Source: an uncultured Shimia sp. (GTDB lineage Bacteria; Pseudomonadota; Alphaproteobacteria; Rhodobacterales; Rhodobacteraceae). From it: DNA of 64,000 nucleotides. The translations under genes were made by a program, and so were the position numbers. The notes beneath the pieces were generated by a model. It was given only the letters and a program-made list of their open reading frames with translations. It was not told where the DNA came from and made no database searches. The stretch spans positions 1 through 64,000 of the forward strand of contig NZ_CANMJE010000013.1 of assembly GCF_947498095.1 (NCBI RefSeq), read 5' to 3'. How positions within the stretch are numbered: the first letter of the stretch is position 1; each line of letters starts with the position of its first letter. Shown here piece after piece: positions 8,892 to 30,987 of this stretch.

Positions 8892-8935
8892 CTTCTGGGC
8901 GGAAGAGGAGCAGAACTGCAGAACAAAGCAGACCT

Positions 8936-9562: not shown

Positions 9563-9590
9563 GGTGATGGCAACAGAACCCATGGGCTGG

Positions 9591-10326: not shown

Positions 10327-10484
10327 AGTAGCTGTGATCAGCTTCGCTGGTCGACCTATGCTCGATAAGAATCGGTGTGATTAGGTCTTTGCTCACGACC
10401 AATGAAATCCCACACAAGTTGGTCTACTTGTCATGTCGACTTAGTATGCAGTGACCCTGCTACTCGTTTTCTAAGGTGGAACAA

Positions 10485-11297: not shown

Positions 11298-11661
11298 TGG
11301 GCATTAACGCACGTTAGGACGCCGTGTCATCGAACTTGGCACGATCTTCTACACAATGGTCGCCTAGGTCGGAATTGAGCCGCAACAGAGGGCAGCAAAG
11401 CGACAAACACAACGCGTTCTCTAGGGGCACAAAATATTTGGCGCTTTCTAGCTAACATTTTACCGCGCCGCCACTTCCATCCCTTCCACCACATTCATCA
11501 TCTGACTTGCGCACCTGAATTCGGACGAAACTCATACGGTCTTGCGACAGGCAAAAAAGACTGCTTCTGCTTCCCCGTCAGTTCCTAAAGCAGCCTTTGG
11601 AGCAGCCGTAGCGAAATGGCGCTTTGTCCCGCTCGGCAGACCTTAGCTCATTTCGCAGCGA
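11298..11661. other. gap without gene
   Basis: No coding sequence or RNA recognised. Positions about 11590-11661 (AGCAGCCGTAGCGAAATGGC, CATTTCGCAGCGAACGACCG) belong to the interspersed repeats and lead into the outer end of the first polymerase element. Confidence 0.4.
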
Positions 11662-13835: not shown

Positions 13836-14009
13836 GAACTCAATCTCTCTTGGAATCGTAAAAGGCCTGCAGGCTTGCCAACTGAGCTTCATCCATGGCT
13901 CCTAGCGGACCTTGGCGATCATTGCGGCGAAGGTCTGATTCCAGATCAAAGAAGCTTTCGAAGCAAACCAGATCCTAGGCTGATATCATGCGATCTGCGG
14001 CCTGACCTT
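13836..14009. repeat. convergent gap with intergenic repeat
   Basis: Between polymerase and cyclase genes. TAGCGGACCTTGGCGATC and TTGCGGCGAAGGTCTGATTCC (about 13909-13946) belong to the interspersed family, here inside the element. No terminator recognised. Confidence 0.4.
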
Positions 14010-15902: not shown

Positions 15903-16139
15903 AATCCTTTCGCTCTATGAACGACGTAAGTAGACTGCATATTTATAACAAAGGGAAAGGATAAGTTGTCAAACTACAGATTTGGTCACCGAAGCGGGAC
16001 CAAAAAATAATTTCCAAAAGGTCTTCAACACCTAAAGTGAAACTGCAACTTCATCCGTAACTGAGACCTTGGCGCAAACCACAGCGAGCGAGCGCATTCC
16101 GCCCTTAGTTTGGATACGATCGCGCCGCAGCATAAGTTT
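15903..16139. repeat. gap upstream of cyclase, with intergenic repeat
   Basis: AT-rich DNA upstream of the cyclase start, followed at about 16064-16115 by ACCTTGGCGCAAACCACAGC and GAGCGCATTCCGCCCTTAG of the interspersed family. No gene seen. Confidence 0.4.
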
Positions 16140-16289
16140 CTAGACTTTACTCACAGACGCATAATTCCAGCTCTCATTGTCGCCCGTTATGTCCCAGATC
16201 CCTTCACAGAGCGCCGCCACCTCTGGATGGTCTGACCAGCGATGGACGTCGATGGGGCGGGAGTGCCAAGGGTTCTTGATGTCAGCCAT
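16140..16289 (-). pseudogene. truncated 5' end of TV-Pol-like polymerase gene
   Basis: From ATG 16289 the frame reads MADIKNPWHSRPIDVHRW and stays similar to the protein at 12408 through WSDHPEVAALC (residue 28). It then runs into unrelated codons and stops at 16140 (49 codons). It is therefore a start fragment of a second polymerase gene, not a functional protein, and lies in inverted orientation to the intact one. Confidence 0.85.
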
Positions 16290-16980
16290 AGCTTACCTTC
16301 CTGCTGGGATAGGGGATAGGGGGTAGGAAGGGAGGTAACATCTGGGTCTCTTCCCTCCGCCCTCTATTCATTACTTATACCTATTCCCCCTAGCCATAGA
16401 ACCCCGGTAGAGACGACCACACCAACAAGTACAGTTGAGGACACGAGCCTGCTCAGACTATGGGAAAGCGAAGCTGCCAGCACCCGCAACTTGTGCACCA
16501 ACTACTGGGGCATAAACGGGGGCATTTCCTAGGACTACGGGCGTCCCGGGTGCTTAGTTTACTGAACTAAGGAGAGGTGGCTGGGATGGTAGGAATCCTT
16601 GCCGACCCATAGGTAACATCGACTTACGGCAACCTCTGACCAAACTGGGGCGGTTACTGGGGCATCACAGAGCGCTAGCGGAGTGAGGATGGGACCACGG
16701 CTAGCCACTGGGAGCCCCGCTGAAGGCAGGACTGAGACCCGATGGCCGGGGCTGTCGGGGGTGTGGGGTTGGGGAACCAACTGTACTTGGGAGGTTAGCG
16801 TTGGGGCTGAGTATAGTAAGCCGATCTTGGGCATAGGGATAAGTAATGAAAGTGCAGGTAGAAGGAGCGGAGTAGCCGCCAATCCACCCTGTCCTCCCAG
16901 ACTAGAGGGGCCCAAGAAAAAGAAAGGCAGCCGTCCAGTTTACCCGCAGCATTAGGTACTAAGGGCGGATAGCGGTCATT
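16204..16980 (-). repeat. right long inverted repeat of polymerase element 1
   Basis: Inverted counterpart of 11662-12493: polymerase start codons, ATAAGTAATGAATAGAGG block, GCATAAACGGGGGCAT arm, hairpin, core 16578-16594, AACTGGGGCGG arm, then the outer part ending CGCAGCATTAGGTACTAAGG. The outer half closely matches the solo module and the DNA left of 28158, while the inner half matches only the left repeat of element 1. Confidence 0.7.
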
Positions 16981-17169
16981 CGCTGCAGTTAGTCCCGAAG
17001 TCTGCTATGCGGAACAAACAAAATTTTGGAAGTTGCCGCATCAAATGGAGGGTGTGGAAACCCAATTCCCTTCCTAACCGGTATTGCTCAATAACCAACG
17101 TATAGAATATGTGGTTATGCGAGGCACAGAGCGGCCTTCGATACCATCACTGACTAAGGATTGCGCCAC

Positions 17170-18411
17170 ATGCTTGCTGAACTGCTTTTTTATTTGGGTA
17201 CAACCGTTTCGCTTGCAATAGCTCTTTTGTACTTCCGCGATCTTGGCGACATTCCTCAATTGTTCATAACGACCAAGCGAAGAAATGTGGATAGGTTCAT
17301 TCGCAATGAGTACAGGTTTTTCGCGGTAGGGTGCGGTGCGTGGCTTGTATCCGCTATCGCCTATTTTGGATTAAGTGCTGGGATCGGTTGGGTCTTCTGG
17401 ATTGCCACATTGATATCGTTCGTACTGATGGCGTTTACTTGGATCTATGTGCATCTGGGCCTGCGCAATCAAAAAGACAAGGCGCAGTATTTCAGTATCA
17501 AGGAAGCGAAGGAGTTCGTAAGCCCTACGACACAAGTGATTGTGCTTGAAAATAACGGTCTTGCGCGGGCACATCCCCAGCCTCAAATGATGCGACCGCA
17601 TCTTGCTGGGTCGAAGGACGGGCTGAACGGTGAAGATGTTGTTATGACGTTTTGCGCGATTGCAAACCTTGGTCTCGGGTACACGCCAGAAATTGAGGGC
17701 CAAAAGTTGGAACTTGAAGTGCTTGCTCAGCACGGCAACAACCTTGTCTTGCGTGACAATGAAACCGGCGAACCTTTGCAGCAGATATACGGTTTTCGTG
17801 CCAAAGATCAGGACACATCAACTAACGGTCCCGCCTGTCCTTTGCGCCCGACACTTTCAATGCGGCCATGGCCGACGTTTCGCATGACTTTCCGCGGGTT
17901 TGAGAAAGCTTTTCCAAACGGTGAAGTCTTTTTAAACAAACCTCCGTCGAACCCTCTCCTCTTTCTGCTCGATTTTGCTATGGAACTCGCATTCACCGCC
18001 ACGATCCAGAAACACCACACCGAGGCACGCCCCATCATGCAGAACCTTGAGCGCCCCATTGATCCCAGACTGCCAACCAAGTCCTACGTTTGGGGTGTGA
18101 GTATAGGCGGCGATGCGACGTGTTGGACAGACGATTTCGTGGTGGCCAACGGCAATATTGTGAACGCGGTTGTCGGAGGCCAAGCGCTGGTTGTTGCATG
18201 GGATCCACTTTTCGAAAGCCTTAATGTATGGATCAATGAGACCGGAGAGATAGTGACTGAAGTCGACTTCTTCGGCAACTCCTCAGATGGTCAACTCGCG
18301 CGTTCGCCCGATGTTAAACCGGGCTTGTTCTGGCATGTTTGGGCCGAGTTTTTCCCCCATACCGATGTCAACCGGGTGGGCGCGCAGGAAGAAACGCCGA
18401 AACTAGCGTGA
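17170..18411 (+). CDS. membrane protein with DUF3179-like region
   Basis: A 413-aa protein; ATG 17170 has TAAGGA upstream (a TTG at 17161 is the alternative). Three N-terminal hydrophobic helices (about 1-20, 50-70, 75-98) anchor it in the inner membrane. The rest contains two stretches resembling DUF3179: VVMTFCAIANLGLGYTPEIE and KSYVWGVSIGGDATCW followed by NAVVGGQALVVAWDPLFESL. DUF3179 proteins (about 300-400 aa) are uncharacterised. No operon partner is seen; an intergenic repeat follows the stop. Calling it DUF3179 is from memory of the family pattern and is moderately sure. Confidence 0.6.
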   Translation: MLAELLFYLGTTVSLAIALLYFRDLGDIPQLFITTKRRNVDRFIRNEYRFFAVGCGAWLVSAIAYFGLSAGIGWVFWIATLISFVLMAFTWIYVHLGLRNQKDKAQYFSIKEAKEFVSPTTQVIVLENNGLARAHPQPQMMRPHLAGSKDGLNGEDVVMTFCAIANLGLGYTPEIEGQKLELEVLAQHGNNLVLRDNETGEPLQQIYGFRAKDQDTSTNGPACPLRPTLSMRPWPTFRMTFRGFEKAFPNGEVFLNKPPSNPLLFLLDFAMELAFTATIQKHHTEARPIMQNLERPIDPRLPTKSYVWGVSIGGDATCWTDDFVVANGNIVNAVVGGQALVVAWDPLFESLNVWINETGEIVTEVDFFGNSSDGQLARSPDVKPGLFWHVWAEFFPHTDVNRVGAQEETPKLA

Positions 18412-18884
18412 ATGCGGACACAGCAGGCGTTCGCTGCGGCTTGTACGAAGGTAGGCCGTAAGTTGCCATGACATGTATTGGGCAGGGCCCGATTGCTGCA
18501 CCCCACGCATTTCATCACTATGGGCGGTAACCGGAACTTCGCTGCGAAATTCTCCAAGGTCTGGTTGGTGTGGCAAGCCAGACTTTGTGAACCGCCGCGT
18601 CTAGGGTTCTCTTTGACGGATCAAGGTTTCCTCTATTTCTGGATGGGTGCCGTCTTTTTTTCTTTCCTTTTATTAGCATCTTCTCTGGGATGTCCTATGC
18701 ACTGCAAGATCGCAGCCATTGTTGACGTATGTGGGTGTAATAGATCTCACCTGTCGCAAGTAGTGAGGCAATCAAAACACAAGTACTCACTCTTAGGCTC
18801 TAGCCTCTAGCGCAAGACATCCCTCGCGCGCTAGGAATGGCGCCGTGAGAATTTGAGTAAACTAAGAGGCGGGGTCGGAAGGCG
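18412..18884. other. gap with two intergenic repeats, no supported gene
   Basis: 18414-18460 (GCGGACACAGCAGGCGTTCG) and 18520-18575 (GGAACTTCGCTGCGAAATTC) are interspersed repeats. The remainder to 18884 has no convincing coding signal; promoter elements for the gene at 18885 probably lie in the last 150 bp. Confidence 0.45.
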
Positions 18885-19955
18885 TTGACAGGCATTTGGA
18901 AGCTCAAGTCAGCAGCCGCAATATTTTTGGTTATTAGCCAATGCAACATGGCTATAGCGGAAGAGCCGCAAGGCAACGATCCTTTTGAGGATGCGACAGA
19001 CCTACAACCTAGCTCCGCTGATATGTCTGACGGAATTCTTCCTCAATTAGGCATCCTGTTGAAATTTCCTGACAATCTTCAACTGCGAAACCCGAGAAAT
19101 ACACAAACAGCAGCAGAACCAGTCACATATGATCGGAAGCTACCTTTTTTTGGGCAGCAAGCCGTGGATCGCGGTTTTGCTTTGCCACTGCCTTTTGGGA
19201 TCAGTGTAATCGGAGTTAAAAACTCCCAACTGCAGGAAATTACTGATCCAGCCGTGGCGCTTGGCAAGGGTTTTGCACCGCCACCCGGTACGCCGCTGGT
19301 GCCGATCCCGTTTGTAACTCTCGAGAACGTCATTTCCCGAACCAGTAGCATGCAGGTCAAGTTGGATGCTTGGGTACTGCCCAACGTCAATGTGTTCGGC
19401 TCGGTTGGAAGAGTGAATGGCACCGCAGATCTGGATGTGGTGGTGGATTTGGATCAGATATTTCCACCGCCAGTCTGTACACCAATAAGCCCGTGCGGAA
19501 CGGCAACGGGACACTTCGTGGCTGGGATCGACGCGACAACACTAACGATTGGTGCAACCGCTGTGCATGGGTGGGACAATTTCTTTCTGACTGGCACAGG
19601 ATCATTCACCGATACGATTGGCAAAAAATCGGACACCACAGTGCGTTCAGTGTCGGCAAGTGTACGCTTTGGTCGTCAGTGGATTGTTGGCCAGAAGACA
19701 GTTTTTGCGCCCTATATTGGGATCTCTTATCTTGACTACGACGAGGAGATCGAGGGCGTGACGGGCCTGCCCAATGCCTTTCCTGATGGTGACAGCCTTG
19801 AGGTTCGGTATCGAGCACAATCCACTAATGTAGATAAGTATTCCGGCGTGATCGGATTGAATGTGGGTTTTCAAAATGGCATGGGAATTCAGGCCGAGTA
19901 CAATAAGAACCAAAGTGGTGAGCGTTTTGTCCTGTCCAGTGTCATTCGGTTCTGA
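18885..19955 (+). CDS. predicted outer-membrane beta-barrel protein
   Basis: A 356-aa protein from a TTG start with GGAAGG upstream. Residues 1-25 form a signal peptide (AAAIFLVISQCNMAIAEE). The second half alternates short amphipathic strands (VKLDAWVLPNVNVFGSVGRV, VRSVSASVRFGRQWIV, YSGVIGLNVGFQNGMGIQAEY) and ends in a terminal aromatic (SSVIRF), the usual signature of a barrel inserted by the BAM complex. A Pro-rich stretch with two Cys (PPPVCTPISPCGTATG) may form a surface loop with a disulfide. No named family is recognised; it may be an autotransporter-like or vitamin/lipid porin-like barrel. It stands alone. Confidence 0.65.
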   Translation: MTGIWKLKSAAAIFLVISQCNMAIAEEPQGNDPFEDATDLQPSSADMSDGILPQLGILLKFPDNLQLRNPRNTQTAAEPVTYDRKLPFFGQQAVDRGFALPLPFGISVIGVKNSQLQEITDPAVALGKGFAPPPGTPLVPIPFVTLENVISRTSSMQVKLDAWVLPNVNVFGSVGRVNGTADLDVVVDLDQIFPPPVCTPISPCGTATGHFVAGIDATTLTIGATAVHGWDNFFLTGTGSFTDTIGKKSDTTVRSVSASVRFGRQWIVGQKTVFAPYIGISYLDYDEEIEGVTGLPNAFPDGDSLEVRYRAQSTNVDKYSGVIGLNVGFQNGMGIQAEYNKNQSGERFVLSSVIRF

Positions 19956-20297
19956 TCCTGTCAGGGCCGAACCGCGCTCTGCCAACAATTTCAGATGGCT
20001 TCTGTTCTGCCAATCGGACCTTCGCTGCAAAGAGCGCCAAAGTCGGCTTAGGGCCGTTAGCTGTCGTGATGGGCGACAAGGGCCATCCTATTGCTGCACC
20101 ATGCATATTCCGACACTAAGGGCGGATACTGGTCCTTCGCTGCGTGATGCGCCAAGGTCTGTTATGCTGAACGAAGTCTACCTTCTAGACCCGCATGTTA
20201 ATGTCCACTTGCTGCTTCGCATGGCTCCAAGCGCCTTGACCTCACGCAACCAATAGCATTGCATGACGGGGTTAAAGAGGTGAAGGAAGCGTGCCGC
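19956..20297. repeat. gap with tandem intergenic repeats
   Basis: Holds at least three members of the interspersed family in a row (CCTTCGCTGCAAAGAGCGCC about 20020; AAGGGCGGATACTGGTCC about 20120; GCTGCGTGATGCGCCAAGG about 20140). No gene is supported. Confidence 0.45.
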
Positions 20298-20822
20298 ATG
20301 TCTGAAACAACTATCCGAATGGCCCAAAATGATCGTGATTTTGAAGTTGCGCGTGCATTGTGCCGAGAATGGCTGGAGTGGCATTGGAAGGCATTTCCTG
20401 ATGACGGTCCAAAGGAAAACAACCCATTGGACCCTGATGTATTCCAAAGCGTCATCGATGATCTTCCTCAAATCCATGCCAGACCTCGTGGGGGCATCCT
20501 CTTAGCTGATGTGAACGATCGACCTGCAGGATGTGTGATGTTTCACGAATTGGAGCCTGATGTCGCCGAGATAAAGCGCCTGTTCGTCAACGAAGCAGGT
20601 CGAGGTCATGGTCTCGGACGATTACTTCTGGAGAAAATGTTTGAACAGTTGATCGCAGACGGATACCAAACCGTCATGTTTTCTTCCGCAAAGTTCCTGA
20701 CCCATGCGAGACGCCTTTATGAAAGTGTCGGTTTTCGTGATATCCCACACCCTGAAGGTTTCCCCGAGCACTTGCACAGCTTTGTCTACTTCATGGAACG
20801 ACCGCTCTTCAAAGAAGTTTAA
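20298..20822 (+). CDS. GNAT-family N-acetyltransferase
   Basis: A 174-aa protein from ATG 20298, chosen because AAGGAAG lies nine bases upstream; the longer frame from 20259 adds 13 unlikely residues. The acetyl-CoA binding motif is clear: IKRLFVNEAGRGHGLGRLLL (R/Q-x-x-G-x-G/A pattern), preceded by PAGCVMFHEL and followed by ARRLYESVGFRDI. It transfers an acetyl group to an amine substrate that cannot be named. It belongs to the common GNAT subgroup that acetylates amino acids or small molecules. It lies between repeats and the third recombinase element with no operon partner. Confidence 0.85.
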   Translation: MSETTIRMAQNDRDFEVARALCREWLEWHWKAFPDDGPKENNPLDPDVFQSVIDDLPQIHARPRGGILLADVNDRPAGCVMFHELEPDVAEIKRLFVNEAGRGHGLGRLLLEKMFEQLIADGYQTVMFSSAKFLTHARRLYESVGFRDIPHPEGFPEHLHSFVYFMERPLFKEV

Positions 20823-20980
20823 GAAATCGGCTTGGCCTGCGTCATGTTTTCATTTTCACGTGCAGCGGGCTTTCGCTGCTTAGTAGCCATTTGGTGAGAT
20901 TGGGCTCGAACCTGCCATTCGCCGCAACCAGAACGAACGGCGGGTTTGGTCCGTAAGCACCAGTTGGCGCTACTCCAATG
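20823..20980. repeat. intergenic repeat flanking recombinase element copy 3
   Basis: CGGGCTTTCGCTGCTTAG, CTGCCATTCGCCGCAACC and CACCAGTTGGCGCTACTCC belong to the interspersed family; the last block is repeated in inverted form right of the element (23016-23045). Confidence 0.5.
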
Positions 20981-21076
20981 AAGGGCTGCTTTGTTCTGCA
21001 TTTCCGCTCCCCTTCCACCCAGAAGAAAAAAGCAAAGTGGCTCCCCCGGCCAGCGCAATGCCAGCCGAGGGAAAGA

Positions 21077-21250
21077 TCACTTGATCTGCTTGGTCACCAC
21101 GTAGTCAGCCAGCCATTGCCAGTAGGCATCAGCATTCTTGAACCCCTGAGCTCTCGCAGCAAGGGTCTCGGCCTCTGAACGAGAAAGACCGCCATCGTAC
21201 TCTGCGATAGCGGCCCTCTCTTCGAACGCGTCAATGTCAGGCACGGTCAT
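21077..21250 (-). CDS. 57-aa ORF overlapping recombinase stop (copy 3)
   Basis: Translation starts in an ATGA overlap with the recombinase stop and ends YVVTKQIK; it differs from the copy 2 ORF by one residue seen near the end (V for T). Small, acidic and helical; function unknown. Its conservation in all copies favours a real protein or a role coupled to the recombinase. Confidence 0.55.
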   Translation of the reverse strand: MTVPDIDAFEERAAIAEYDGGLSRSEAETLAARAQGFKNADAYWQWLADYVVTKQIK

Positions 21251-22530
21251 GACACGGCCACCGGCAAGCGGATCTGATCCATGATCCCGCGCTTCTGCTC
21301 GTCATTTATGCCAGCACTGTAGATACCATAGGTCAGCCCATTCTCTGACCGGGCCGACTTATGACCCACCAGAGACGCCGTCCAATGCTCAGGCACACCT
21401 GTTCGCTCGCACTGGGTCACAAACCACTTCCTTGTTGAGTGGAACACCAGACCGGGACGTTCCAGCCCCAGAGACGCCCGCAGAGCCGCAAAGCCCTTGG
21501 TGATCTGATTGACACTCAGGTCAGGGAACAGTGGCCCCTCAGATGGCAGGCCTTGGAACAGCTCCTCTAGCACAGGGTGCACAGGTACCAACCGTTCAGC
21601 CGCATCAGTCTTCAGCAACCTCAGGTCATTGGGGCGCACATGAACGAAAGTCCCTAGATTGCCCTTGGTCACCAGATCTTCCCGAAGCAGCCCTGCGGCC
21701 TCTCCAGCTCGCATCCCTGATAACAGGCAGGTCAGCAACACGGGTCGCAGCACGTCATCTCTAGTCGCCAGCATCCGCACCACCTCATCATCCGAGGGCA
21801 CCGCATAGGGCTTAGGGCGCACCTTCTGCTCGAAAGGAACCGTCCTGAAGGGATTGGCTTCCAGATGCCCCTCGTAGACTAGCCAATCGAGGAAGTGATT
21901 GACCTGAGACCAGATGCGTTTCTGGGTCCTCGCCGTGATCCGGGGTGCCCCGTAGGAAGAGACTCGCACCGACTGCTCCAGCGTTAAGCCTTGCGTGGCT
22001 CTGGACCGCCCAAGAACCGGAGAAAGCTGGGCTATAAGACCAAGGAACTCTCGCCCCTCAACCCGGCTCAGACTGCACACCGATTGTTCCTCGTACTTCG
22101 AGAGAAACAGCCCCACCGAGTAGCGCACTGATTTGAACCCACCGGGTCGTAGCTCACGGGCTCTGCGGCATAGGTAGTCTCGGCCAAGGTCTCCAATCAG
22201 CGTTTTCTTAGGCGTCACGGGACGTTGGTACGGAACCACCTCAGAGGGCTCCAGAGTGGCCCGCAGGTGATCAAGGGCGGTCTCCGGTGTATCGACCCAT
22301 GCGGAGACATCAGAGAGCACCACTTCGGCCCCCTCGCGCACTTGAGCCACCAGAACTTCAAATCTGGCGTTCACCTCAGCAGCCCGTTGTTTTGCGGTGG
22401 AAGCTGACCCGGTCTTCAGGCTTTGCTTCATGGCCGCAGATCCAAGCACGAGTGCCACGTCACTTGGGTAGTTGCGTCGGAACAGCCACGTGTGACCCTT
22501 CCGATACGCATATCGAATTTGAGCAGACAT
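21247..22530 (-). CDS. tyrosine recombinase / integrase (copy 3)
   Basis: A 427-aa protein nearly identical to the one at 7387. Substitutions seen include A151V, A217L, A319P, S409N, S416G and V418M. None affects the catalytic residues R274, K307, H364, R367, H390 or the Tyr pair 401/404, so both copies are probably active. It is preceded by the two small ORFs and GGAGGAG as in copy 2. The opposite orientation of copies 2 and 3 brackets 12 kb. Confidence 0.92.
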   Translation of the reverse strand: MSAQIRYAYRKGHTWLFRRNYPSDVALVLGSAAMKQSLKTGSASTAKQRAAEVNARFEVLVAQVREGAEVVLSDVSAWVDTPETALDHLRATLEPSEVVPYQRPVTPKKTLIGDLGRDYLCRRARELRPGGFKSVRYSVGLFLSKYEEQSVCSLSRVEGREFLGLIAQLSPVLGRSRATQGLTLEQSVRVSSYGAPRITARTQKRIWSQVNHFLDWLVYEGHLEANPFRTVPFEQKVRPKPYAVPSDDEVVRMLATRDDVLRPVLLTCLLSGMRAGEAAGLLREDLVTKGNLGTFVHVRPNDLRLLKTDAAERLVPVHPVLEELFQGLPSEGPLFPDLSVNQITKGFAALRASLGLERPGLVFHSTRKWFVTQCERTGVPEHWTASLVGHKSARSENGLTYGIYSAGINDEQKRGIMDQIRLPVAVS

Positions 22531-22568
22531 AGGTCTCCTCCTTCTAATTGGTTTTGGGAAAGGGCGGC

Positions 22569-22763
22569 TCAGTCAACCGCGCTGCAATGGACCCGTAGGA
22601 CTAAGTCGAAGTCGGGCTCGCCGTACTCGCCAGCCAGTGGTCCTGTGAGAGAGTAACCGCCTAGGCAGTCATCAAACACATAATCGACCCGGAACAGATG
22701 CTCAGGCCAGTCCTCTCCAGCGCGGATGACGACCGTGTCGCCGGGGTTCAATTCAATCATCAT
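22569..22763 (-). CDS. 64-aa ORF of recombinase element (copy 3)
   Basis: MMIELNPGDTVVIRAGEDW and the remainder equal the copy 2 protein apart from two substitutions (T6N, A17E). Short beta-prone protein of unknown family located between the 55-aa ORF and the recombinase. Confidence 0.5.
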   Translation of the reverse strand: MMIELNPGDTVVIRAGEDWPEHLFRVDYVFDDCLGGYSLTGPLAGEYGEPDFDLVLRVHCSAVD

Positions 22764-22920
22764 CGGACCTCCAAGCGGAGACCAAGGCCGGCAGAACCAG
22801 CGCTGAGACGGCGGGGTGGGAACGACCAACAACCCAGAGCATCGTCGTCAGCACGGCTCTTGGTGGTGGGGTCAAAAGAAAACCCCCGGCGAGAACGCCG
22901 AGGGCTGATAAGGTTTTCAT
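22753..22920 (-). CDS. 55-aa hydrophobic ORF of recombinase element (copy 3)
   Basis: MKTLSALGVLAGGFLLTPPP onward, identical to copy 2 apart from P for L at residue 44. The upstream site is AAGGAG. Overlaps the 64-aa ORF by 11 bp. Function unknown; possibly only a leader peptide. Confidence 0.45.
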   Translation of the reverse strand: MKTLSALGVLAGGFLLTPPPRAVLTTMLWVVGRSHPAVSALVLPALVSAWRSDDD

Positions 22921-23015
22921 CGGTAAACTCCTTCGATTTCTATCGATATAGATACGAAGGGTGGCTCGGATTTGGGGGGGCGAGAGGAGCGGAACTGCAG
23001 AACAAAGCAGACCTT

Positions 23016-23282
23016 CATTGGAGTAGCGCCAACTGGTGCTTTCGGCCCAAAGCCGACCTTGATGCCAATTGCAGTAAACGGCAGGTTTGAGCCCAAAGCT
23101 GACAAATGCTGCAAACAGCACGAATTGGCGGTAAGGGCGGAAAGCAGCCATTTGTTCCGATAGCGAAGGTCAAATCACAAATGTACAGAGCCGCCAATAG
23201 CTGCAACTGCGCCAAGCTTATAGAACCGGAAACTCAAAGTACCGGCAACGCCTGGCTTCGACAAGGATCAATAGGTTATCCG
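23016..23282. repeat. gap with intergenic repeats
   Basis: Right flank of recombinase copy 3: CATTGGAGTAGCGCCAACTG, CTGGTGCTTTCGGCCCAAAG, AAACGGCAGGTTTGAGCCC and AAGGGCGGAAAGCAGCC, all members of the interspersed family and shared with window positions 115-190. No gene. Confidence 0.5.
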
Positions 23283-24332
23283 TTACTTGGAAGGCCTATC
23301 CAAATTTAAAATACTATGAGGCGAAGCTGCACTGGCGAACTTTGTGGGAGACACTCCAAAATATCGTGCAAATGCTCTGGAGAAATTTCCCGGTTCTTCA
23401 TACCCCAAAGCCTCGGAAACACTGGCCACAGTGCTCCCTTTCATCCCTAGCAAATCCTGAGCGCGTTTCATGCGGGATTCGTTCAGGATTTGGCGAAATC
23501 CTGTGCCGTGCCTGGACAACTGCCTTTGCACACCTCTGGGGCCGATCCCCATTGATAGCGCAAGCCGCTCAAGAGAAACATCTTGCGCGGCCAGGTGCAA
23601 TTCAACGACTGAACGGGCGGAGTTGGGGAAGTTGGTCGGTGGGGCCGACCGTTCCCTTAGAATGTCATTGCGTGTGGTCTTTTGGATAACATTCGGGTCT
23701 GGGTTTGGTGCATGCAGTACGGTCTTGTCGAACAACAGCCTTAATTTCGAGCCACCAAACAAAACCGGGCAGCCAAATGTGTCTTCCGCCGCTGTTTCGC
23801 GGTTCCCTGCTGGAAAATCGAATTCGATTTTCAGCGGCGCCCAATCCTTTCCCAAAAAGTGTTTAGGAATGCTCAGCATTGCGGCAACAGCGCTGAAAGC
23901 CATATTTGGATATGTTGGATGGGCTTTCAGACCAAATGCATAGGAATAGGACACCAGATTGTTAAAGGTGACAAATTGTACCCGATCCGTGCACGAGTGC
24001 AGGCGCATCTCTTGCTGAGCGCGCTTCAGGGCCGTGCCCAAGTCCGGTGCTGACAGCACATAGTCCCCCCATGCACCATAGTCCGCGACCGTCAAAAAGG
24101 GCGAAAACAGTAGACCAAGATTATCTTCGCCCAGTTCCCGGCTGACCCCTGCGACGAATTCACATAACGCAAATTCAGGGATGAAACCCTCTCGTTCGCT
24201 GACAAACTTTTCGACCAAGCCAGCACCTGACATTATCCGGAGCGTTTTGCGATGACCAAGTTCGCTTAATGCAAACGCGGGCATGGCCCCGAGAGCTTTG
24301 GCGGTTATCATCGCTGGTGAAAAAGCTGACAT
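23283..24332 (-). CDS. AraC-family regulator, Arabinose_bd type (DUF1254 cluster 1)
   Basis: A 349-aa protein from ATG 24332 (CGGAGA upstream); the longer frame to 24425 would run through the probable operator and is rejected. The N-terminal ~200 residues match the Arabinose_bd-type ligand domain (ADYGAWGDYVLSAPDLGTAL). The C-terminus is a double helix-turn-helix (LERLALSMGIGPRGVQRQLS and VASVSEALGYEEPGNFSRAF). It is a clear paralogue of the regulator at 47432. It is divergent from the DUF1254/DUF1214 gene at 24518, which it likely controls together with itself. Confidence 0.88.
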   Translation of the reverse strand: MSAFSPAMITAKALGAMPAFALSELGHRKTLRIMSGAGLVEKFVSEREGFIPEFALCEFVAGVSRELGEDNLGLLFSPFLTVADYGAWGDYVLSAPDLGTALKRAQQEMRLHSCTDRVQFVTFNNLVSYSYAFGLKAHPTYPNMAFSAVAAMLSIPKHFLGKDWAPLKIEFDFPAGNRETAAEDTFGCPVLFGGSKLRLLFDKTVLHAPNPDPNVIQKTTRNDILRERSAPPTNFPNSARSVVELHLAAQDVSLERLALSMGIGPRGVQRQLSRHGTGFRQILNESRMKRAQDLLGMKGSTVASVSEALGYEEPGNFSRAFARYFGVSPTKFASAASPHSILNLDRPSK

Positions 24333-24359
24333 TATGTCTCCGACTAAATACAGGCAGTG

Positions 24360-24394
24360 TGTCGTGAAATGATATTTCTGACAATGATCTTTGT
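24360..24394. promoter_or_regulatory. shared operator candidate in DUF1254 cluster 1
   Basis: TGTCGTGAAATGATA (24360-24374) followed by ATCTTT 13-15 bp later. The same 15 bases and a similar ATCTTT lie at the same place upstream of the paralogous AraC/DUF1254 pair (48460-48494), while surrounding bases differ. Likely binding site of the AraC-type regulators. Confidence 0.55.
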
Positions 24395-24517
24395 GCGATA
24401 GTCGGGTTCGCCGTTTGGACGACATGTTCGTTCAACAGCGCGTTTAGGCATCAAGCACAGGACCTTAACCGGTTTCTTGAAAGGCCTTCCAGCACCTGAT
24501 CAAATAAGGAGAACCAA

Positions 24518-26047
24518 GTGCCTGTTCCACAAACTCTTTTGACAAAATTGGCAACACCCTTCCAAAGCGCCTCTGCTCTGGCGCTTGTCGCGGCCGTCGC
24601 GCTTGGCGTTCCCGCTACTATGGCCCAGACCTTTAACGACACAGGCGATATTCTTGCCCGGTCTGCCGAAATCGAAGACGTCGAATATAAAATAATGGTG
24701 CAACGGGCAACGCAAACGGCGATCTGGGGAATGCCTGCTGTTGGTATGGTCGACTTCATCAAAGCGACAAAGCGCGATTTGGGCGGCGACATCAACGATG
24801 TTGTTTACTTGAAGCAACCCTTTGATTCCAAGCACGGGTTCCTGACACCAAACGATGTTACAGCCTATGCATGGGGGTCGATGACGTCTGAGCCGGGTCC
24901 GCTGATTGTCGAAGTCCCGGCAGCCACCGATAATGTCAGTTACTTTGGCACTATCGTGAACGCCTGGGATGTCCCGATCGAGGACGTCGGGCCGGCGGGG
25001 GCCGATAAGGGCGAAGGTGGAAAGTATCTGTTGTTGCCGCCGGGCTATGATGGGGACAAATCCAAGGCCGATCTCGAGGCAGAGGGATATCTTGTGTATG
25101 AAACGGACACGTATCAGTACGGGTTCTCGTTCCGACCCCGGCTGTACAATGGTGCGACGGATGCCGATGCAGCCGAGTATGCGCAGCAGATCAAGGTGTA
25201 TTACTTGTCCGAGGCGGATAACCCACCCGCGACCACGTATCACGAGGCGTCACAGCTGCCCTATGATTCACTGCCCTACTACAACCACACGTTCTTTGAA
25301 GACATGAACGACTATCTGCAGGGCAACCCGATCCGCCCGCAGGACAAGGTCATGGTGTCCATGCTCAAGAGCCTTGGCATCGAAAAAGGCGAACCATACG
25401 AGCCCACCGAACGCCAATTGGCGGCAATGAACGAAGGGTTGGTTCTGGCATATGCGGCGATGCAGGATTTCTTTGTCGCGCCGGGTAAATCAACGGTACC
25501 GCTTTGGGTTGATGACAAAGGTGAAAGAAAATCCCAATGGCTGGTCTGGGATTTTGCGCCCGGTCAGGCAGAAGCTGGCTTTCCATATGAAACCGACGAA
25601 GAAGTGTTGCTCGATGATCGGGCCGGAGGGAGCTATTTCTGGATAACATATCTGCCGAAATATCTGGGTGGCGGGACATTCTATCTGACGGGATTGAATG
25701 ACAGCGACGGTGACATTCTGGACTACACCAAAAATTACACATTGAACGTTCCCAAAGATACACCAGCAAAAGATTTCTGGTCGGTGATCGTCTATTCGAT
25801 GGAAACCAAAGGGTTCATCCGGGACGTTGTGCGTGTAGGCCTGTCCGCGCGTGATGCCGAGGAAATGCAGGTCAATGACGACGGATCTTATGACATCTAT
25901 TTCGGCCCTGAAGCTCCGGACGGCAAAGAAAGTAACTGGATCCCGACCACAGAAGAATACTTTCTCCTGTTCCGGCTTTACGGCCCGGAAGAAGGCTGGC
26001 TGCAAAGCGGTTGGGTCCTGCCAGATCTGGAAAAGGTCTCACAGTAA
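24518..26047 (+). CDS. secreted DUF1254 + DUF1214 protein (cluster 1)
   Basis: A 509-aa protein from GTG 24518 with AAGGAG upstream. The signal peptide runs to about residue 36 (LALVAAVALGVPATMAQ). DUF1254 occupies about 55-190 (AIWGMPAVGMVDFIKATKRD, AYAWGSMTSEPGPLIVEVP) and DUF1214 about 355-490 (KNYTLNVPKDTPAKDFWSVI, LSARDAEEMQVNDDGSYDIY, FLLFRLYGPEEGWLQSGW). The two domains usually occur together in periplasmic proteins of unknown function. It is about 80% identical by eye to the protein at 48541. Expressed divergently from an AraC regulator and followed by a second, broken DUF1254/1214 gene. Confidence 0.9.
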   Translation: MPVPQTLLTKLATPFQSASALALVAAVALGVPATMAQTFNDTGDILARSAEIEDVEYKIMVQRATQTAIWGMPAVGMVDFIKATKRDLGGDINDVVYLKQPFDSKHGFLTPNDVTAYAWGSMTSEPGPLIVEVPAATDNVSYFGTIVNAWDVPIEDVGPAGADKGEGGKYLLLPPGYDGDKSKADLEAEGYLVYETDTYQYGFSFRPRLYNGATDADAAEYAQQIKVYYLSEADNPPATTYHEASQLPYDSLPYYNHTFFEDMNDYLQGNPIRPQDKVMVSMLKSLGIEKGEPYEPTERQLAAMNEGLVLAYAAMQDFFVAPGKSTVPLWVDDKGERKSQWLVWDFAPGQAEAGFPYETDEEVLLDDRAGGSYFWITYLPKYLGGGTFYLTGLNDSDGDILDYTKNYTLNVPKDTPAKDFWSVIVYSMETKGFIRDVVRVGLSARDAEEMQVNDDGSYDIYFGPEAPDGKESNWIPTTEEYFLLFRLYGPEEGWLQSGWVLPDLEKVSQ

Positions 26048-26142
26048 ATCTGTCTCCAAGAAAAAAGTCGCGTTGCCCGCAAAGTGGGCAGCGCCGGATT
26101 GACTTCCCCTCTCAGGAGACAAGAAACAGGGAATCACGCTTT

Positions 26143-27690
26143 ATGCTAAAAACTTGCACAGCTGTATTGGCCTTGAGTTTCGGTATCGTGGCCAGTGCCG
26201 GGTATGCGCAAACGGTACGCAAGCCCGGCACAGATATCCGGGCACAAGCAATCGGAGAACTGACAGACGCACGCGTTCGGGAAGTTCTGGTCGAAGACGG
26301 GCGTGTTTCCATGAGTGGAGGCTTTTTCGAAAATGACAGTGCCGAGTTGAGTGGCACTTCCGATCAGGTGCTTTTCAAACTTGCCAGCTCTATGGGTTTG
26401 CACCCCAATATGCGTCTGGCGATCGTTGGCCACACCGACAGCACTGGTGACTTTGACTATAACATCGGCCTTTCACAGCGTCGCGCCGAAGCGGTGAGAG
26501 CTGCACTATTGGATGCACCTTTCAATGTTGCGCCCTAACGCCTTGTTGCCATGGGTGCCGGATCAATCAGCCCGGTGGCATCCAACGCAAGCGATGAAGG
26601 CCGTGCTCTGAACCGCAGGGTTGAATTCGTGCTTTTGGACGAAACAGTAGAGGCTTTGCCAGCGGAAGAAATTGTTGTCCCCGCACAATCTACAGCGGAA
26701 TATGCGGCGATGGTTCCAGAGAATGTCCTGACCCCGGACCTTGTGCGTACAAAGACCTTGGGCGATCTGCGTTTCTTCGACGGGATGCCGTCGCCTGAAA
26801 CTGTCCAAAAGACCTTTGATAATCTTGATCTGATGCGCGCGACATCTGCGTTTTTGGATGGAATGAAGATCGCTTCGCTCAACCCACCGGCCGAGAAATT
26901 CATCAACGTGTCGGATGTCCAGTACAAAACGGTTCACGCCAACAACGAGGACTTCTTTCATGAGATTGACGTTGCGCTGAACAACAACCCGATCGGTGCC
27001 TTTGATCCGGAGATTGTAGGCACGTTTGCCTCTATCGGATTGAAAAAAGGCGAGCCATTTGAACCCGATGCACGGATGCGGGAAATCATGGTCGAAGCCG
27101 CAGCAATCGCCAATGCCACAGCGCGTTCGATCACCTATGCCGCGCGTGACCCCGGCGTTTACTTCTATGAAGATCGCCAGTGGAATTCGCCGTTCCAGCG
27201 CCAAAGCTATCTTTTCTTGGAAGACGGTGCACGTATCTTGGATGACCGGAGTTATTTCTTCTATATGGCGACTGGTATCACACCAGCCATGACATCGCCG
27301 CCCGTAGGATCGGGGTCAGTTTACGCGATGACCGCGCGGGATGTGAACGGGGAGTATCTGGATGGATCCAATACCTACAAAGTCACACTTCCCGGTCCGG
27401 TTCTTGCCAATAACTTCTGGTCGTTCATGCTGTATAGCGGTCAAACACGGTCGATCCTTGAAACCGATCAGAAATCCGGTGGAATAGACTCTAACGGCGA
27501 AGGGATCAAAGCCAATGAGGACGGCAGTTACACCGTCTATTTCGGCCCCGAAGCGCCGGAGGGTTGGGAAAACAACTGGGCGCAAACAGCTCCGGGCCGA
27601 AGCTTTAACGCAATGATGCGCCTTTACGGTCCATTGGAGCCTTGGTTCGACAAGAGCTGGAAACCTGGAGACTTCGAACCTGTAGAGTAA
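26143..27690 (+). pseudogene. broken OmpA-DUF1254-DUF1214 fusion gene
   Basis: From ATG 26143 the frame encodes a signal peptide (KTCTAVLALSFGIVASAGYA) and an OmpA-type domain (FENDSAELS, LAIVGHTDSTGDFDYNIGLS, QRRAEAVRAAL). A TAA at 26536-26538 cuts it; in the same frame RLVAMGAGSISPVASNASDE then GRALNRRVEF completes the OmpA domain. The DUF1254 part then jumps from IASL straight to NPPAEKF. Relative to the intact paralogue at 50049 about 146 residues (the DUF1254 core) are missing, in frame. DUF1214 remains complete. Two independent lesions make loss of function likely, although an ATG at 26551 could still express the 379-aa remainder, without signal peptide. Confidence 0.85.
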
Positions 27691-27949
27691 AGTCGCAAAA
27701 GAGATCTTTCGCTATCCCGCCTTCCAAGTGGGATAGTAATCCGCAAAACATATCCGTCAGTGCGTCGACTAGCGGCCAGCCTTTCGTTGCAGCTTTAAAC
27801 GCCCGTTTCGCATTTGCTTGTCATAGTAAGCCTGTGTGCAACGAAAGTCCGCAGGTGGCCGAAGCGGTCGTAAACTTGAACCAGTTGAAGGTCTGGAAAG
27901 TCCGCACATCCGACCTTGGCGCGACCCTCATCGAAAGACCGCTCCCCAA
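27691..27949. repeat. gap with intergenic repeats, left of polymerase element 2
   Basis: AACGAAAGTCCGCAGGTGGC, AAAGTCCGCACATCCGACC and GAAAGACCGCTCCCC belong to the interspersed family, leading directly into the outer module end. No gene is supported. Confidence 0.45.
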
Positions 27950-28157
27950 CCAACGCTGCGGGTAAACTGGACGGCTGCTGTGCTCCCAACACACCGACAG
28001 CCCCGGCCATCGGGTCTCAGTCCTGCCTTCAGCGGGGCTCCCAGTGGCTAGCCGTGGTCCCATCCTCACTCCGCTAGCGCTCTGTGATGCCCCAGTAACC
28101 GCCCCAGTTTGTTCAGAGGCTGCCGTAAGTCGATGTTACCAAAGGGTCGGCAAGGAT

Positions 28158-28534
28158 TCCTACCATCCCAGCCACCTCTCCTTAGTTCAGTAAACTAAGC
28201 ACCCGGGACGCCCGTAGTCCTAGGAAATGCCCCCGTTTATGCCCCAGTTGGTTTTCACGAGATCTAGGTGTTGGCGGGGTCGCTGACACACTGCTGGCGT
28301 GGGCTCTGACCATGGGTTTGGATACGAACTGTACTTGTTGGTGCTGACCTGACCTCCCCCAGATGAGCGGGAGAGGTCGTTGGCGTTAGGTCTGAGTATA
28401 GTAAGCCGATCTTGGGCATAGGGATAAGTAATGAAGGAGCAGGAGGACGGGGCGTAGCAGTTACCCAGCCCCCCAGTACTACCCGATCATCCTCCCAGAT
28501 CAGAAGAACCAAGATAGGAAACTCTCTCGTTGAA
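28158..28534 (+). repeat. left 377-bp inverted repeat of polymerase element 2
   Basis: Exact inverted copy of 30329-30705 as far as I could compare base by base. It includes the 17-bp tRNA-Gln core, the CTTAGTTCAGTAAACTAAG hairpin, the GGGGC arm, a TGGGGGAGG / CCTCCCCCA-type repeat and the last 15 codons of the polymerase gene. Confidence 0.9.
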
Positions 28535-30040
28535 GAGCCGTTGACGCACTAGATACTCGGGGCAGCGTTCCCGTTGCCGCATTTGAACATAGTCCTCAAC
28601 GAGATCAGGGGACTGTCTCTCCACCTCATCCAGCCCCAGATAGTTGTTCGATAAGACAATGGAACGGCCAACGGAGTGCCGAGCTGTCGCAGTCATAGCG
28701 ACCTTGAGCCTCTGGGCCATCTTGTAGTTGATCAGGAAGCTGTCATGCACACCCAGCACCGGGATTCCCCTCCGAGTGAAGAAGTTGATGATCCGGGATG
28801 CTATTTGACTGTCAGTGTTCATCAGGCGAACCCCTTGGTCTGAGCAAAGATCCTTAACCAAATTCGGGTGCTTCTCGGTGAACGCATCCAGTAACCCCAA
28901 CAACTCCTTATTGGTCATTGATTTTCCACGAGAACCTGTAGAACAATCCTGCCGAAAAGCCTTGCAAGCAGTGCTCCTGTCTTTGGCATTCAGTGCCATC
29001 AACACGAGCGCCTTAACGAGCTTGCGTTGCTCCGCCGGAGTACAACCATCCACAAGGCCTTCCTCCAACTCATAAGGATCTCCGGTCACGTCAACCCCAT
29101 GCCGCGCAGATAGAATGGCGACATGAAGCGCCTGATAGTCGACCTCCACTGTTGGCTCATCGTTGATATGGATACGTTTGCGGAACTCGGACCCAACGCT
29201 TTGCCACCACCCCCCAAAGAAACGCCCACCACAGCTCCAATCGTTGCGATTAAAGATACGGCGAACGGGATTATCCATGGTGCAAATCGGAACCCGAGCA
29301 ATCTCTCCCTGACGAGGCCCTGACTTAATTGGGCGTTCGATAACCGGGACTATTTGATCCGGAACATCAATGAAGGTTCGGGCCAGAAGTTGGTTATAAG
29401 CGTTCAGGTCAGCCCGCATCTGATGCGTTTCTTCGGTGTCTTCGTATTCGACCTCCTTTTTCTTTAGATCGTGCATGATGATACATTCTTTGACGGGATA
29501 CACCGAGATGTGCTCCCGACCGAACTTCGCCTCCCGAAACAGTTTCTTGAGAGGTTCAGCGGCGATGATACGGGCCGTTCTGTTGGTCTTGGCCCCGGGA
29601 CCCGCATAGCTGCCCTTCGACAAGTGGATAAAGCCTTGATCCGCAAGCCGATGTACCAGCCCCGGCATTATCCGGGACAGGTGAAGTGCGTTATATCTGG
29701 AGCTCGTATTCCAAGCCGTATTGGACAGGTGGACCCCGATACTGAGATCGGGATCCGTTTTCCAAGCGACGTAGAGATCAAGGATCAGAACGCGAAGCTG
29801 GCTGCGATAGTTAGCCTTTGGTTTGGCCCCTCCACGTTTTGGGTTGGCGCAGGCGAGATCCTGACAGCTTAGCTGCCAGATATGCCGGACTATGTTCCCA
29901 ACTTCTGAATGCTCCGAGTACACGTGAACGTCGAGTGGACGGGCGTAAGCTGGATTTATCGAACATTCCCCAAACTTCGGCGTTGATTTTGTTGATTGCG
30001 CCTTCTTGGTGGACTTTGAGTTTTCTAAGTTTGTGTGCAA
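28487..30040 (-). CDS. superfamily-A polymerase of mobile element (TV-Pol-like)
   Basis: A 517-aa protein; the start is uncertain (TTG at 30040; no strong ribosome site). Superfamily-A motifs are intact: motif A VEVDYQALHVAIL (D301, H306), motif B RKLVKALVLMALNA (R339, K343, N351), motif C LGVHDSFLI (H432, D433). A GRFFGGWWQ block precedes motif A. HDSF is also the motif C form of T7-type RNA polymerases, to which TV-Pols are related. The N-terminal part shares PLDVHVYSEHSEV and the SRYNALHLS helix region with the protein at 12408. The last 15 residues are encoded inside the left inverted repeat. Proposed role: copying the element's own DNA. Confidence 0.8.
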   Translation of the reverse strand: MHTNLENSKSTKKAQSTKSTPKFGECSINPAYARPLDVHVYSEHSEVGNIVRHIWQLSCQDLACANPKRGGAKPKANYRSQLRVLILDLYVAWKTDPDLSIGVHLSNTAWNTSSRYNALHLSRIMPGLVHRLADQGFIHLSKGSYAGPGAKTNRTARIIAAEPLKKLFREAKFGREHISVYPVKECIIMHDLKKKEVEYEDTEETHQMRADLNAYNQLLARTFIDVPDQIVPVIERPIKSGPRQGEIARVPICTMDNPVRRIFNRNDWSCGGRFFGGWWQSVGSEFRKRIHINDEPTVEVDYQALHVAILSARHGVDVTGDPYELEEGLVDGCTPAEQRKLVKALVLMALNAKDRSTACKAFRQDCSTGSRGKSMTNKELLGLLDAFTEKHPNLVKDLCSDQGVRLMNTDSQIASRIINFFTRRGIPVLGVHDSFLINYKMAQRLKVAMTATARHSVGRSIVLSNNYLGLDEVERQSPDLVEDYVQMRQRERCPEYLVRQRLFNERVSYLGSSDLGG

Positions 30041-30328
30041 AAGCCATGATACCTTCTTCGTCTAAAATAAAATGAGACCTCAAAGGCAAAACACCCTTGA
30101 GGAAATTTCAAAGCCAGACGCGAAGAGGTTGCAAACGTGATAAATCACGGTGCACTCCACGAGCCGACTTTCTAGATGTTTTTGAAAAATGAGGACCTTT
30201 GCGAGGTCCAATAGCGAAGGTATCGCTATAGCGTCACTAGACGCTGATTGTTTGCCCACGGGATGCGGGCGGCTGAACGTTGTATATAGGGCATGTTCCT
30301 GTTATGTTCAACCCTGCTTCGAAACAAT
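30041..30328. other. upstream region of polymerase 2
   Basis: About 290 bp between polymerase start and right inverted repeat. No gene is supported. TTTTAGACGAAGAAGGTATCATGG lies in a different frame from the polymerase. Promoter elements are expected here; none was convincing. Confidence 0.35.
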
Positions 30329-30705
30329 TTCAACGAGAGAGTTTCCTATCTTGGTTCTTCTGATCTGGGAGGATGATCGGGTAGTACTGGGGGGCTGGGT
30401 AACTGCTACGCCCCGTCCTCCTGCTCCTTCATTACTTATCCCTATGCCCAAGATCGGCTTACTATACTCAGACCTAACGCCAACGACCTCTCCCGCTCAT
30501 CTGGGGGAGGTCAGGTCAGCACCAACAAGTACAGTTCGTATCCAAACCCATGGTCAGAGCCCACGCCAGCAGTGTGTCAGCGACCCCGCCAACACCTAGA
30601 TCTCGTGAAAACCAACTGGGGCATAAACGGGGGCATTTCCTAGGACTACGGGCGTCCCGGGTGCTTAGTTTACTGAACTAAGGAGAGGTGGCTGGGATGG
30701 TAGGA
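30329..30705 (-). repeat. right 377-bp inverted repeat of polymerase element 2
   Basis: Exact inverted copy of 28158-28534. Its outermost 17 bp (30689-30705) are at the same time the last 17 nt of the tRNA-Gln gene. The next outer base differs from the left copy, where the sequence continues into the module's outer half instead of tRNA. Confidence 0.9.
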
Positions 30706-30763
30706 TTCGAACCTACGGTACACTGTACCAAAAACAGTTGCCTTACCACTTGGCTACATCCCA
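30689..30763 (-). tRNA. tRNA-Gln (anticodon TTG)
   Basis: 75 nt with CCA encoded. Acceptor stem TGGGATG pairs with CATCCCA, discriminator G; anticodon stem ACTGT/ACAGT encloses loop TTTTGGT, anticodon TTG; T arm GTAGG-TTCGAAT-CCTAC. It reads glutamine CAA codons. All parts are intact, so the adjoining element did not destroy the gene. Its 3' end (17 nt) recurs as the core of four att-like modules in the window. Confidence 0.95.
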
Positions 30764-30987
30764 ACAGTGAAGCGCTAATTAATGCGGGAATGAATGAGGC
30801 GCAAGACCCCAAACACACTTTTTCCAGCCTTTTTCGACTTCGTCCTTGAAAGCCGTTGATGCGCGCGGTCCAGGCAGAGAACGTGGCGTCGGGCAATTGC
30901 TACCTCGCGTCACTTGTGTTTGCAGCGATGGACAACATACCGAGTAGTAGGTCATGCTGATACGCAGAAAAACTTGGGAGAAAACCG

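Follow-up and report, generated by a model that had tools for sequence, protein, structure and literature searches.

Genomic islands that tyrosine integrases insert into tRNA genes have their bacterial attachment (att) site, attB, in the tRNA 3' end, a core that includes the CCA, arm sites, and attL and attR. Paired inverted recombinase sites, with amplification driven by recombination, are the hallmark of yeast 2-micron plasmids, and the self-synthesising transposons of the Polinton and casposon kinds use a family-B polymerase. Here we compare with these systems a locus of an uncultured Shimia sp. in which long inverted repeats enclose a polymerase gene beside a tRNA-Gln gene. It lies in a stretch of 64,000 nucleotides (contig NZ_CANMJE010000013.1, positions 1 to 64,000), the whole of which is called the window below. 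The best explanation of the whole, which we consider reasonably probable, is that a tyrosine integrase has inserted an integrative element into the tRNA-Gln 3' end, and that the locus is the end of this element nearest the tRNA.

Elements that, like this one, carry a superfamily-A polymerase of the TV-Pol type have been proposed to be replicative (Iyer et al., 2008; PMC2579912). The excerpted text of that paper lists Rhodobacterales among the carriers, describes a subset of TV-Pols with an N-terminal domain that lie beside a resolvase, a lambda-type integrase or a transposase, gives direct repeats of about 200 nt for the Brucella element, and makes no mention of tRNA-Gln, mirrored att sites, long inverted repeats or invertible segments. 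The PolA-SSB primases of the staphylococcal cassette chromosome (SCC) likewise place an A-family polymerase on an element; that enzyme is a primase, and SCC differs in its serine recombinases, its rlmH target and its partner SSB protein (PMC10061031, in excerpt). The yeast 2-micron plasmid carries its FRT sites in repeats of 599 bp, exists as two isomers and replicates by a double rolling circle when Flp acts just after one site has been copied (PMC3147054, in excerpt); its recombination has a role in copy number (PMC7710549, in excerpt).

Mirrored attachment sites at tRNA-Gln

The repeats form a perfect inverted pair of 377 nt, a length at which chance is excluded, and the complementarity of the arms amounts to 380 nt overall (28155-28534 and 30329-30708). 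The last 17 nt of the tRNA gene, CCA included, lie inside the perfect right arm, and the final 48 nt of the main open reading frame (ORF) between the arms, with its stop codon, lie within the left arm. The features of this part of the window are as follows.

30689-30763, minus strand: tRNA-Gln(ttg), the attB; its last 16 nt, 30689-30704, are the attL core CCTACCATCCCAGCCA (ARAGORN, Rfam, core map)
30329-30705, minus strand: P' arm at attL, the right copy of the perfect repeat, with paired TGCCCC sites and the motif ATAGGGATAAGTAATG
28487-30040, minus strand: polymerase A, predicted TV-Pol-type superfamily-A enzyme of 517 amino acids (aa), intact (motifs, fold, selection)
28424-28433, plus strand: ATAAGTAATG motif in the left P' arm, mirrored at 30430-30439 on the minus strand
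28158-28534, plus strand: P' arm of the inverted attP, the left copy of the perfect repeat; contains the 3' end of the polymerase gene
28089-28233, plus strand: intact attP, inverted, with P sites, core (28159-28174) and P' sites (core map)

Homology extends beyond the left arm, through about 27985-28158, and this extension contains the other arm of the attachment site; it was what first suggested that the repeat does not mark a transposon boundary. Nine matches to the arm sequence occur in the genome itself: the window has seven, made up of the two arms and five further copies, and contigs C26 and C4 have one apiece. An Rfam search of 27800-30800 for structured RNA in the arm returned only the tRNA at a meaningful score. 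As single-stranded DNA, one arm folds no more stably than its shuffles (z +1.4), and that candidate was rejected.

A collection of 84,980 species' genomes was scanned, in which 247 stretches encode a relative of the polymerase; the best 80 were used, and core copies were read in 35 of these loci. Repeats around the polymerase that end 17-20 nt inside a tRNA-Gln are recurrent among the best 80 of the 247. In a separate search of 147 genomes (below), some have the polymerase beside tRNA-Gln between perfect repeats of their own, of 245 bp in a member of the genus and, in a different genus, of 447 bp (each pair 100% identical). The att layout consists of a P arm with paired GCCCC sites, the core CCTACCAYCCCAGCCA, which equals the tRNA 3' end with CCA, and a P' arm with paired TGCCCC sites. 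The copy on the tRNA side reads B-core-P' and is an attL, the far one is an intact attP that is inverted, and a third copy, read in a separate Shimia locus (L175, below the Shimia element), is P-core without P' sites, which is an attR. The element thus has the order tRNA-core-P'-(replication)-P'-core-P-(integrase)-P-core, with the polymerase in the P'-bounded segment (segment 1) and the integrase in the P-bounded segment (segment 2). The third site is an attR in six of eight named triples (Shimia, Pseudohalocynthiibacter, Roseovarius, Ruegeria arenilitoris, Falsiruegeria and Sulfitobacter) and carries P' sites in Sedimentitalea and Marivivens. Beyond the core, 302 bp are 99% identical between two Ruegeria attR sites while their P arms differ, so the core is the edge of the element.

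As in tRNA-targeted islands, then, there are an integrase gene, an attB and a CCA-containing core in the tRNA 3' end, arm sites, an attL and, in six of the eight named triples, an attR; unlike them, the element has a second, inverted attP inside it. Read from their sequence, the repeats are the arms of two mirrored attachment sites and not transposon ends. The preliminary description of the locus was right about the perfect 377-bp repeats growing out of tRNA-Gln, their coordinates and junction, and about tRNA-Gln as the target, but its repeat pair is part of a block that runs past the left arm and recurs, as arm sequence, at seven further places in the genome. Its one-gene element without an integrase has to be given up: the element continues leftwards to a tyrosine integrase (21247-22530), relatives of which occupy the corresponding segment elsewhere, and to a third att site.

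The same description invoked the logic of Polintons and casposons, that is, a self-synthesising transposon with terminal inverted repeats. Long inverted repeats do flank the polymerase gene; at their outer ends, these repeats consist of the tRNA core, homology continues beyond it as the P arm, and the integrase sits in the adjoining segment. The superfamily-A fold and an extent past the repeats also set the element apart from Polintons and casposons, and we find such a transposon scarcely credible. The far arm ends in a complement of the tRNA 3' end, CCA included, as would a retroviral primer binding site in replication primed by the tRNA. Integrase arm sites follow this far copy, a further direct copy stands at attR as an att core, and elements with a different replication gene (below) also have the far-end complement; we rate tRNA priming very improbable. 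Mapping of a third core, and of arm sites for the integrase, led us to drop both candidates.

Some tRNA-Gln loci have no such arms. In Ruegeria denitrificans (L215) the tRNA is followed directly by terminator-like sequence without arm sites, and three members of the genus (L066, L071 and L079) have no arm sites downstream of tRNA-Gln, their sequences, unaligned, being alike by eye. A second R. denitrificans locus (L184, 4811-7250) holds an element that does not adjoin tRNA-Gln; its far repeat terminates in CAGCCA, which would suit integration at a secondary site.

Replication genes of segment 1

Sequence searches of Pfam, NCBIfam and PDB sequences with polymerase A gave no superfamily-A match and nothing notable, but a fold search returned the PolA family. 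The AlphaFold2 model, built on a 61-sequence alignment, has a predicted local distance difference test score of 87.9 and a predicted template modelling (TM) score of 0.87. Foldseek matched it to PolA family DNA polymerases (best E 1.8e-6, probability 1.00), with 38 PDB chains at E <= 0.001 and modest TM-scores of about 0.3; phage homologues fit most of its length, and a protein of the virophage Zamilon was also matched (E 5.6e-4). The alignment of 61 homologues has 22 invariant columns, including R273, E299, D301, R339, K343, H432, D433 and S434. Among these are the motifs A (D301), B (R339/K343) and C (H432-D433) of the preliminary description, whose assignment of a superfamily-A polymerase fitting TV-Pol is upheld by fold and motifs together. 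We assign R273 as the putative template-contacting arginine of the hairpin. With this residue, the RxxxK fingers motif (R339/K343), two catalytic aspartates (D301 and D433) and a PolA-like palm, polymerase A is, by its predicted fold and by the motif set of Iyer et al. (2008; PMC2579912, in excerpt), a TV-Pol-type enzyme. The gene is under purifying selection, the proportions of non-synonymous (pN) and synonymous (pS) differences from the Shimia copy being 0.187 and 0.710.

Polymerase A also matches phrog_4756, a family of unknown function (1.9e-47), which is likely to be a superfamily-A polymerase family. Relatives occur in 178 phage records, all below 60% identity (Rheinheimera 114, Vibrio 43, Aeromonas 14, and others); the 20 listed carry the annotation hypothetical. 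Distant relatives lie within a few kb of tRNA-Cys at three loci (L046, L054 and L055), the first with an integrase-like ORF between polymerase and tRNA. In Paracoccus versutus pBEN (L059) polymerase and integrase genes fall in an unannotated stretch of a record that has only three features and says little. PADLOC assigned no defence family to the polymerase or the integrase.

The mirrored layout is not tied to the polymerase. Two genomes, G339 and G073 (contigs of 3.7 and 3.3 Mb), have it without a polymerase match. In G073 the P' repeat is 527 bp and the P repeat 245 bp, both 100% identical; in G339 they are 307 bp (99.7%) and 431 bp (95.4%). Segment 1 of each encodes a DUF5906 protein (E 9.4e-21 in G339 and 2.2e-19 in G073) with a Walker-type GTGKST stretch, which we take to be an SF3/D5-like helicase. 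Iyer et al. (2008; PMC2579912, in excerpt) describe D5-like helicases that are linked to TV-Pols as their partners. We infer that the helicase stands in for TV-Pol in these elements, and segment 1 looks like a slot for replication genes. Another DUF5906 gene adjoins attL in G071.

Both P' arms of 11 of the 12 polymerase-bearing units examined contain an inward-facing motif, ATAGRKATAAGTAATG: those of Shimia, Pseudohalocynthiibacter, Roseovarius, both Ruegeria, Falsiruegeria, Sedimentitalea, Sulfitobacter and Tropicibacter, and units A and B of the window. Marivivens is the exception, and neither DUF5906 unit has the motif. Its core resembles the yeast mitochondrial promoter ATATAAGTA, which is read by a polymerase related to this superfamily. 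Our guess is that ATAGRKATAAGTAATG might be a promoter or origin for TV-Pol.

Occurrence of the element and the array in the window

A polymerase match, in several cases a distant one, was found in 19 of 147 genomes, the present one included; with 128 genomes lacking a match, the element is not fixed at this locus across species, and no joined empty site was found. Cores were searched for in 19 genomes from among the loci of the wider scan, selected because they carry the polymerase and, in most cases, the repeats. At least one core is present in 18, and the triple tRNA(+)/inverted(-)/direct(+) in eight, while a reversed-pattern control occurs in none of the 19. Because of the way in which the genomes were picked, eight of 19 is no measure of prevalence. 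In an unselected sample of 295 genomes of the family (the present one included, nearly one per genus), 22 have an attL-type site, that is, tRNA-Gln followed by P' sites, and in 10 of these the contig ends within 5 kb. An attP-like pattern occurs in 12 of the 295, one of which (G376) is the tRNA itself. Where at least 8 kb of contig lies beyond attL, an inverted core is present in five of 12 genomes (G000, G060, G062, G073 and G339); the mirrored elements of G073 and G339 were first found through this sample.

Twelve units were compared: the eight named triples, the window counted twice, G339 and G073, leaving out the irregular G062 and Tropicibacter, in which no third core was found. Segment 1 holds a replication gene in all 12 (TV-Pol in 10, DUF5906 in two) and segment 2 an integrase in 11, split into two frames in Marivivens.

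The window itself contains two units. Five cores alternate strictly in orientation, the polymerases A and B lie in two P'-bounded segments and two integrases in two P-bounded segments. The contig begins inside the array, and an attR would lie beyond its edge. To the left of the inverted attP already given, the features are as follows.

16594-28158, no strand: segment 2a between P arms, integrase and cargo
26551-27690 and 24518-26047: DUF1254/DUF1214 genes, cargo of segment 2a
23283-24425: AraC-type regulator, cargo of segment 2a
21247-22530, minus strand: tyrosine integrase, 427 aa, DUF6538 (Pfam; relatives in the corresponding segment of other elements)
17161-18411: DUF3179 gene, cargo of segment 2a
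16507-16651, minus strand: intact attP, direct; core 16578-16593 (-)
12126-16577, no strand: segment 1b between P' arms, polymerase B and cyclase/TPR gene
14010-15902, minus strand: cyclase/TPR gene of segment 1b
12408-13835, plus strand: polymerase B, 475 aa, intact, about 45% identical to A
12040-12184, plus strand: intact attP, inverted; core 12110-12125 (+)
3232-12109, no strand: segment 2b between P arms, second integrase and cargo
7387-8670, plus strand: second integrase, 98.6% identical to the first, in the opposite orientation
3145-3289, minus strand: intact attP, direct; core 3216-3231 (-)

The integrase of the window matches DUF6538 (1.3e-12) and scores 24.2 bits with Phage_integrase, under the Pfam cut-off of 27.1; its relative in G339 scores 38.7 bits, above the cut-off. 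The cargo examined is ordinary, with an AraC-type regulator, DUF1254/DUF1214 proteins, a cyclase/TPR protein, a DsbA-like protein and an EamA transporter.

Such tandem arrays could be integrated multimers or stacked elements. The two polymerases of the window, at about 45% identity, and the third site of Sedimentitalea, an attP with P' sites, would suit a platform on which mirrored attP sites serve as landing places and unrelated elements accrete at one tRNA. Stacking by direct attP x attL recombination would give direct, not alternating, cores, and six of the eight named triples end at one attR; as an account of the mirrored sites we judge accretion improbable.

Several other observations concern the cargo and surroundings. 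The DUF1254/DUF1214 pair of the window (24518-27690) has about 76% DNA identity to a second pair at 48607-51550, and the R. arenilitoris element has ORFs resembling the same set. Segment 2 of G339 (L227, 8371-9918) encodes an AbiP2-like reverse transcriptase of the DRT family (PADLOC 6.3e-186), and the Shimia element carries an AIPR/AbiU-like gene (L175, 2959-4203). A repeat family of about 120-445 bp, in both orientations and up to 99% identical, occupies 51699-60220 of the window. On contig C26 (L004, 1320-1900) a solo attP with a P' arm has ends like terminal inverted repeats (T1/T2), GTAAACTGGACGGCTGC, and no adjoining tRNA-Gln match; similar ends occur near 2855, 11690, 16958 and 27957 of the window. 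They resemble those of a miniature inverted-repeat transposable element carrying an attachment site, a reading that may explain the solo attP. No such ends were noticed by eye in the elements of other genomes, for which no dedicated search was made.

Probable recombination between the mirrored copies

Within 10 elements the P' arms are 85-100% identical, and between elements 12.6-59.8% (median 37.4%, 45 pairs); the P arms are 38-100% identical within nine elements, with a median of 43% between. The arms of the window and the Shimia element are 43% alike, and within each they are 100% and 97% identical, respectively, while the synonymous sites of the polymerase are near saturation (pS 0.71). 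Arms that are alike within and unlike between elements, with synonymous sites near saturation, indicate that their identity is renewed. In both elements the inner repeat end falls in the last polymerase codons, which makes it likely that the layout is inherited, with renewal of the identity. These comparisons argue strongly that recombination or conversion between the mirrored copies maintains their identity.

Such recombination could also invert a segment. At 20 tRNA-Gln loci the polymerase reads away from the tRNA in 10 and toward it in 10. On a tree of 40 polymerases these orientations entail six changes, five of them forced, and are unclustered (165 of 500 shuffles as low). Repeats were not detected at eight of the 20 loci; the repeat-bearing loci (eight away and five toward, polymerase B of the window included) give three changes, with 82 of 500 shuffles as low. 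The integrase reads with the tRNA in three of the 11 units that have one and against it in eight. The pattern suggests that inversion has occurred more than once in evolution, with both orientations found across species.

Both orientations would also be expected of a phase-variation switch, in which the inverted att pair flips segment 1 and changes the gene read from the tRNA-Gln side, with no role in replication. ORFs beside the polymerase in segment 1 of Roseovarius, Falsiruegeria, Tropicibacter and unit B of the window fit such a switch. The same arm sequence lies on both sides, so that inversion leaves the nearby upstream region of the polymerase largely unchanged; the P-bounded segment is mirrored too; and the polymerase is the sole ORF of at least 90 aa called in segment 1 of Shimia, Pseudohalocynthiibacter and R. 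arenilitoris. We think a switch quite unlikely.

Each of the 12 units was closed at the core by a script. All the resulting in silico circles, of 7.1-14.1 kb, have two inverted repeats that span the att core. These repeats measure 373-753 bp, with an identity of 91-100%; identity is complete in Roseovarius (629 bp), Pseudohalocynthiibacter (583 bp) and G073 (753 bp), and 98.7% over 551 bp in the first unit of the window. Like the 2-micron plasmid, the in silico circle has two inverted tyrosine-recombinase sites in long inverted repeats. Unlike it, the elements are bacterial, integrate at a tRNA, have lambda-type att sites with arms and bring their own polymerase or helicase; the layouts are likened from sequence alone.

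The mirrored att copies divide the in silico circle into a P'-bounded replication segment and a P-bounded integrase and cargo segment, and integration through either copy yields the order described above. On our model, recombination or conversion between the copies keeps them identical, and the same recombination would invert the segments. TV-Pol would prime and copy the excised circle, perhaps from the ATAGRKATAAGTAATG motif of the P' arm. Inversion during replication would then make the forks chase one another, as Flp does for 2-micron, and a circle with minimal apparatus would amplify. By this analogy, amplification by inversion during replication is the most likely purpose of the arrangement. 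The full cycle for the family, with excision, recombination of the mirrored att sites, a double rolling circle started by TV-Pol or the SF3-like helicase, and ATAGRKATAAGTAATG as promoter or origin, is a possibility that we put forward tentatively.

The repeats might instead serve nothing, being the scar of a single-attP island that was doubled head to head, trimmed and kept alike by ordinary gene conversion. An island of single-site form, with polymerase and integrase, exists in Paracoccus kondratievae, and Falsiruegeria, G062 and G225 have N-terminal pieces of the polymerase at the opposite P' arm. Yet both att copies keep the core and the paired arm sites, the segment roles are kept (12 of 12 for replication, 11 of 12 for integrase), and the layout persists with two unrelated replication genes. 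We consider a mere scar fairly unlikely; a dimer may explain the origin of the layout without excluding a function.

Several points weigh against the mirrored integrative element and its amplification. Firstly, seven of the 12 unselected genomes have no inverted core within the 8-17 kb examined; set against the five that do, this makes the mirrored form common, not universal. The second core is direct only in G225 and G345, and likewise in P. kondratievae (L186), while the third core of G062 is irregular, being inverted again, and its polymerase is in two separated pieces. No integrase match was detected in G073. Searches for an empty site gave no joined site with a matching right flank (Shimia flanks in 25 genomes, R. 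arenilitoris flanks in 54), and the downstream flank of the related tRNA-Gln in the same genome gave no match and is uninformative in this respect. Secondly, repeats have diverged in R. arenilitoris (87%) and Sulfitobacter (92%, its P arms 38% alike), and ATAGRKATAAGTAATG also occurs in pieces in which no polymerase was found (C26, C4, L185 and L230). Forced changes of orientation fall to two when only repeat-bearing loci are counted, with two changes in all once polymerase B of the window and L124 are removed. No strain was found in both orientations among the assemblies, whose quality was gauged by contig extent only. Recombination of lambda-type attP x attP is usually weak, so inversion may proceed by homologous recombination instead of the integrase. 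Finally, the amplification step rests on analogy, and the circles are known in silico only.

We know of no natural bacterial counterpart of the 2-micron layout, and none was found in the open-licence literature, searched by titles and the beginnings of abstracts. If the proposal is true, an integrating bacterial element would have invented that layout independently, and TV-Pol elements would gain a concrete replication cycle. Such an element may also explain why contigs in this family often end beside tRNA-Gln, as they do within 5 kb in 10 of the 22 attL-type genomes.

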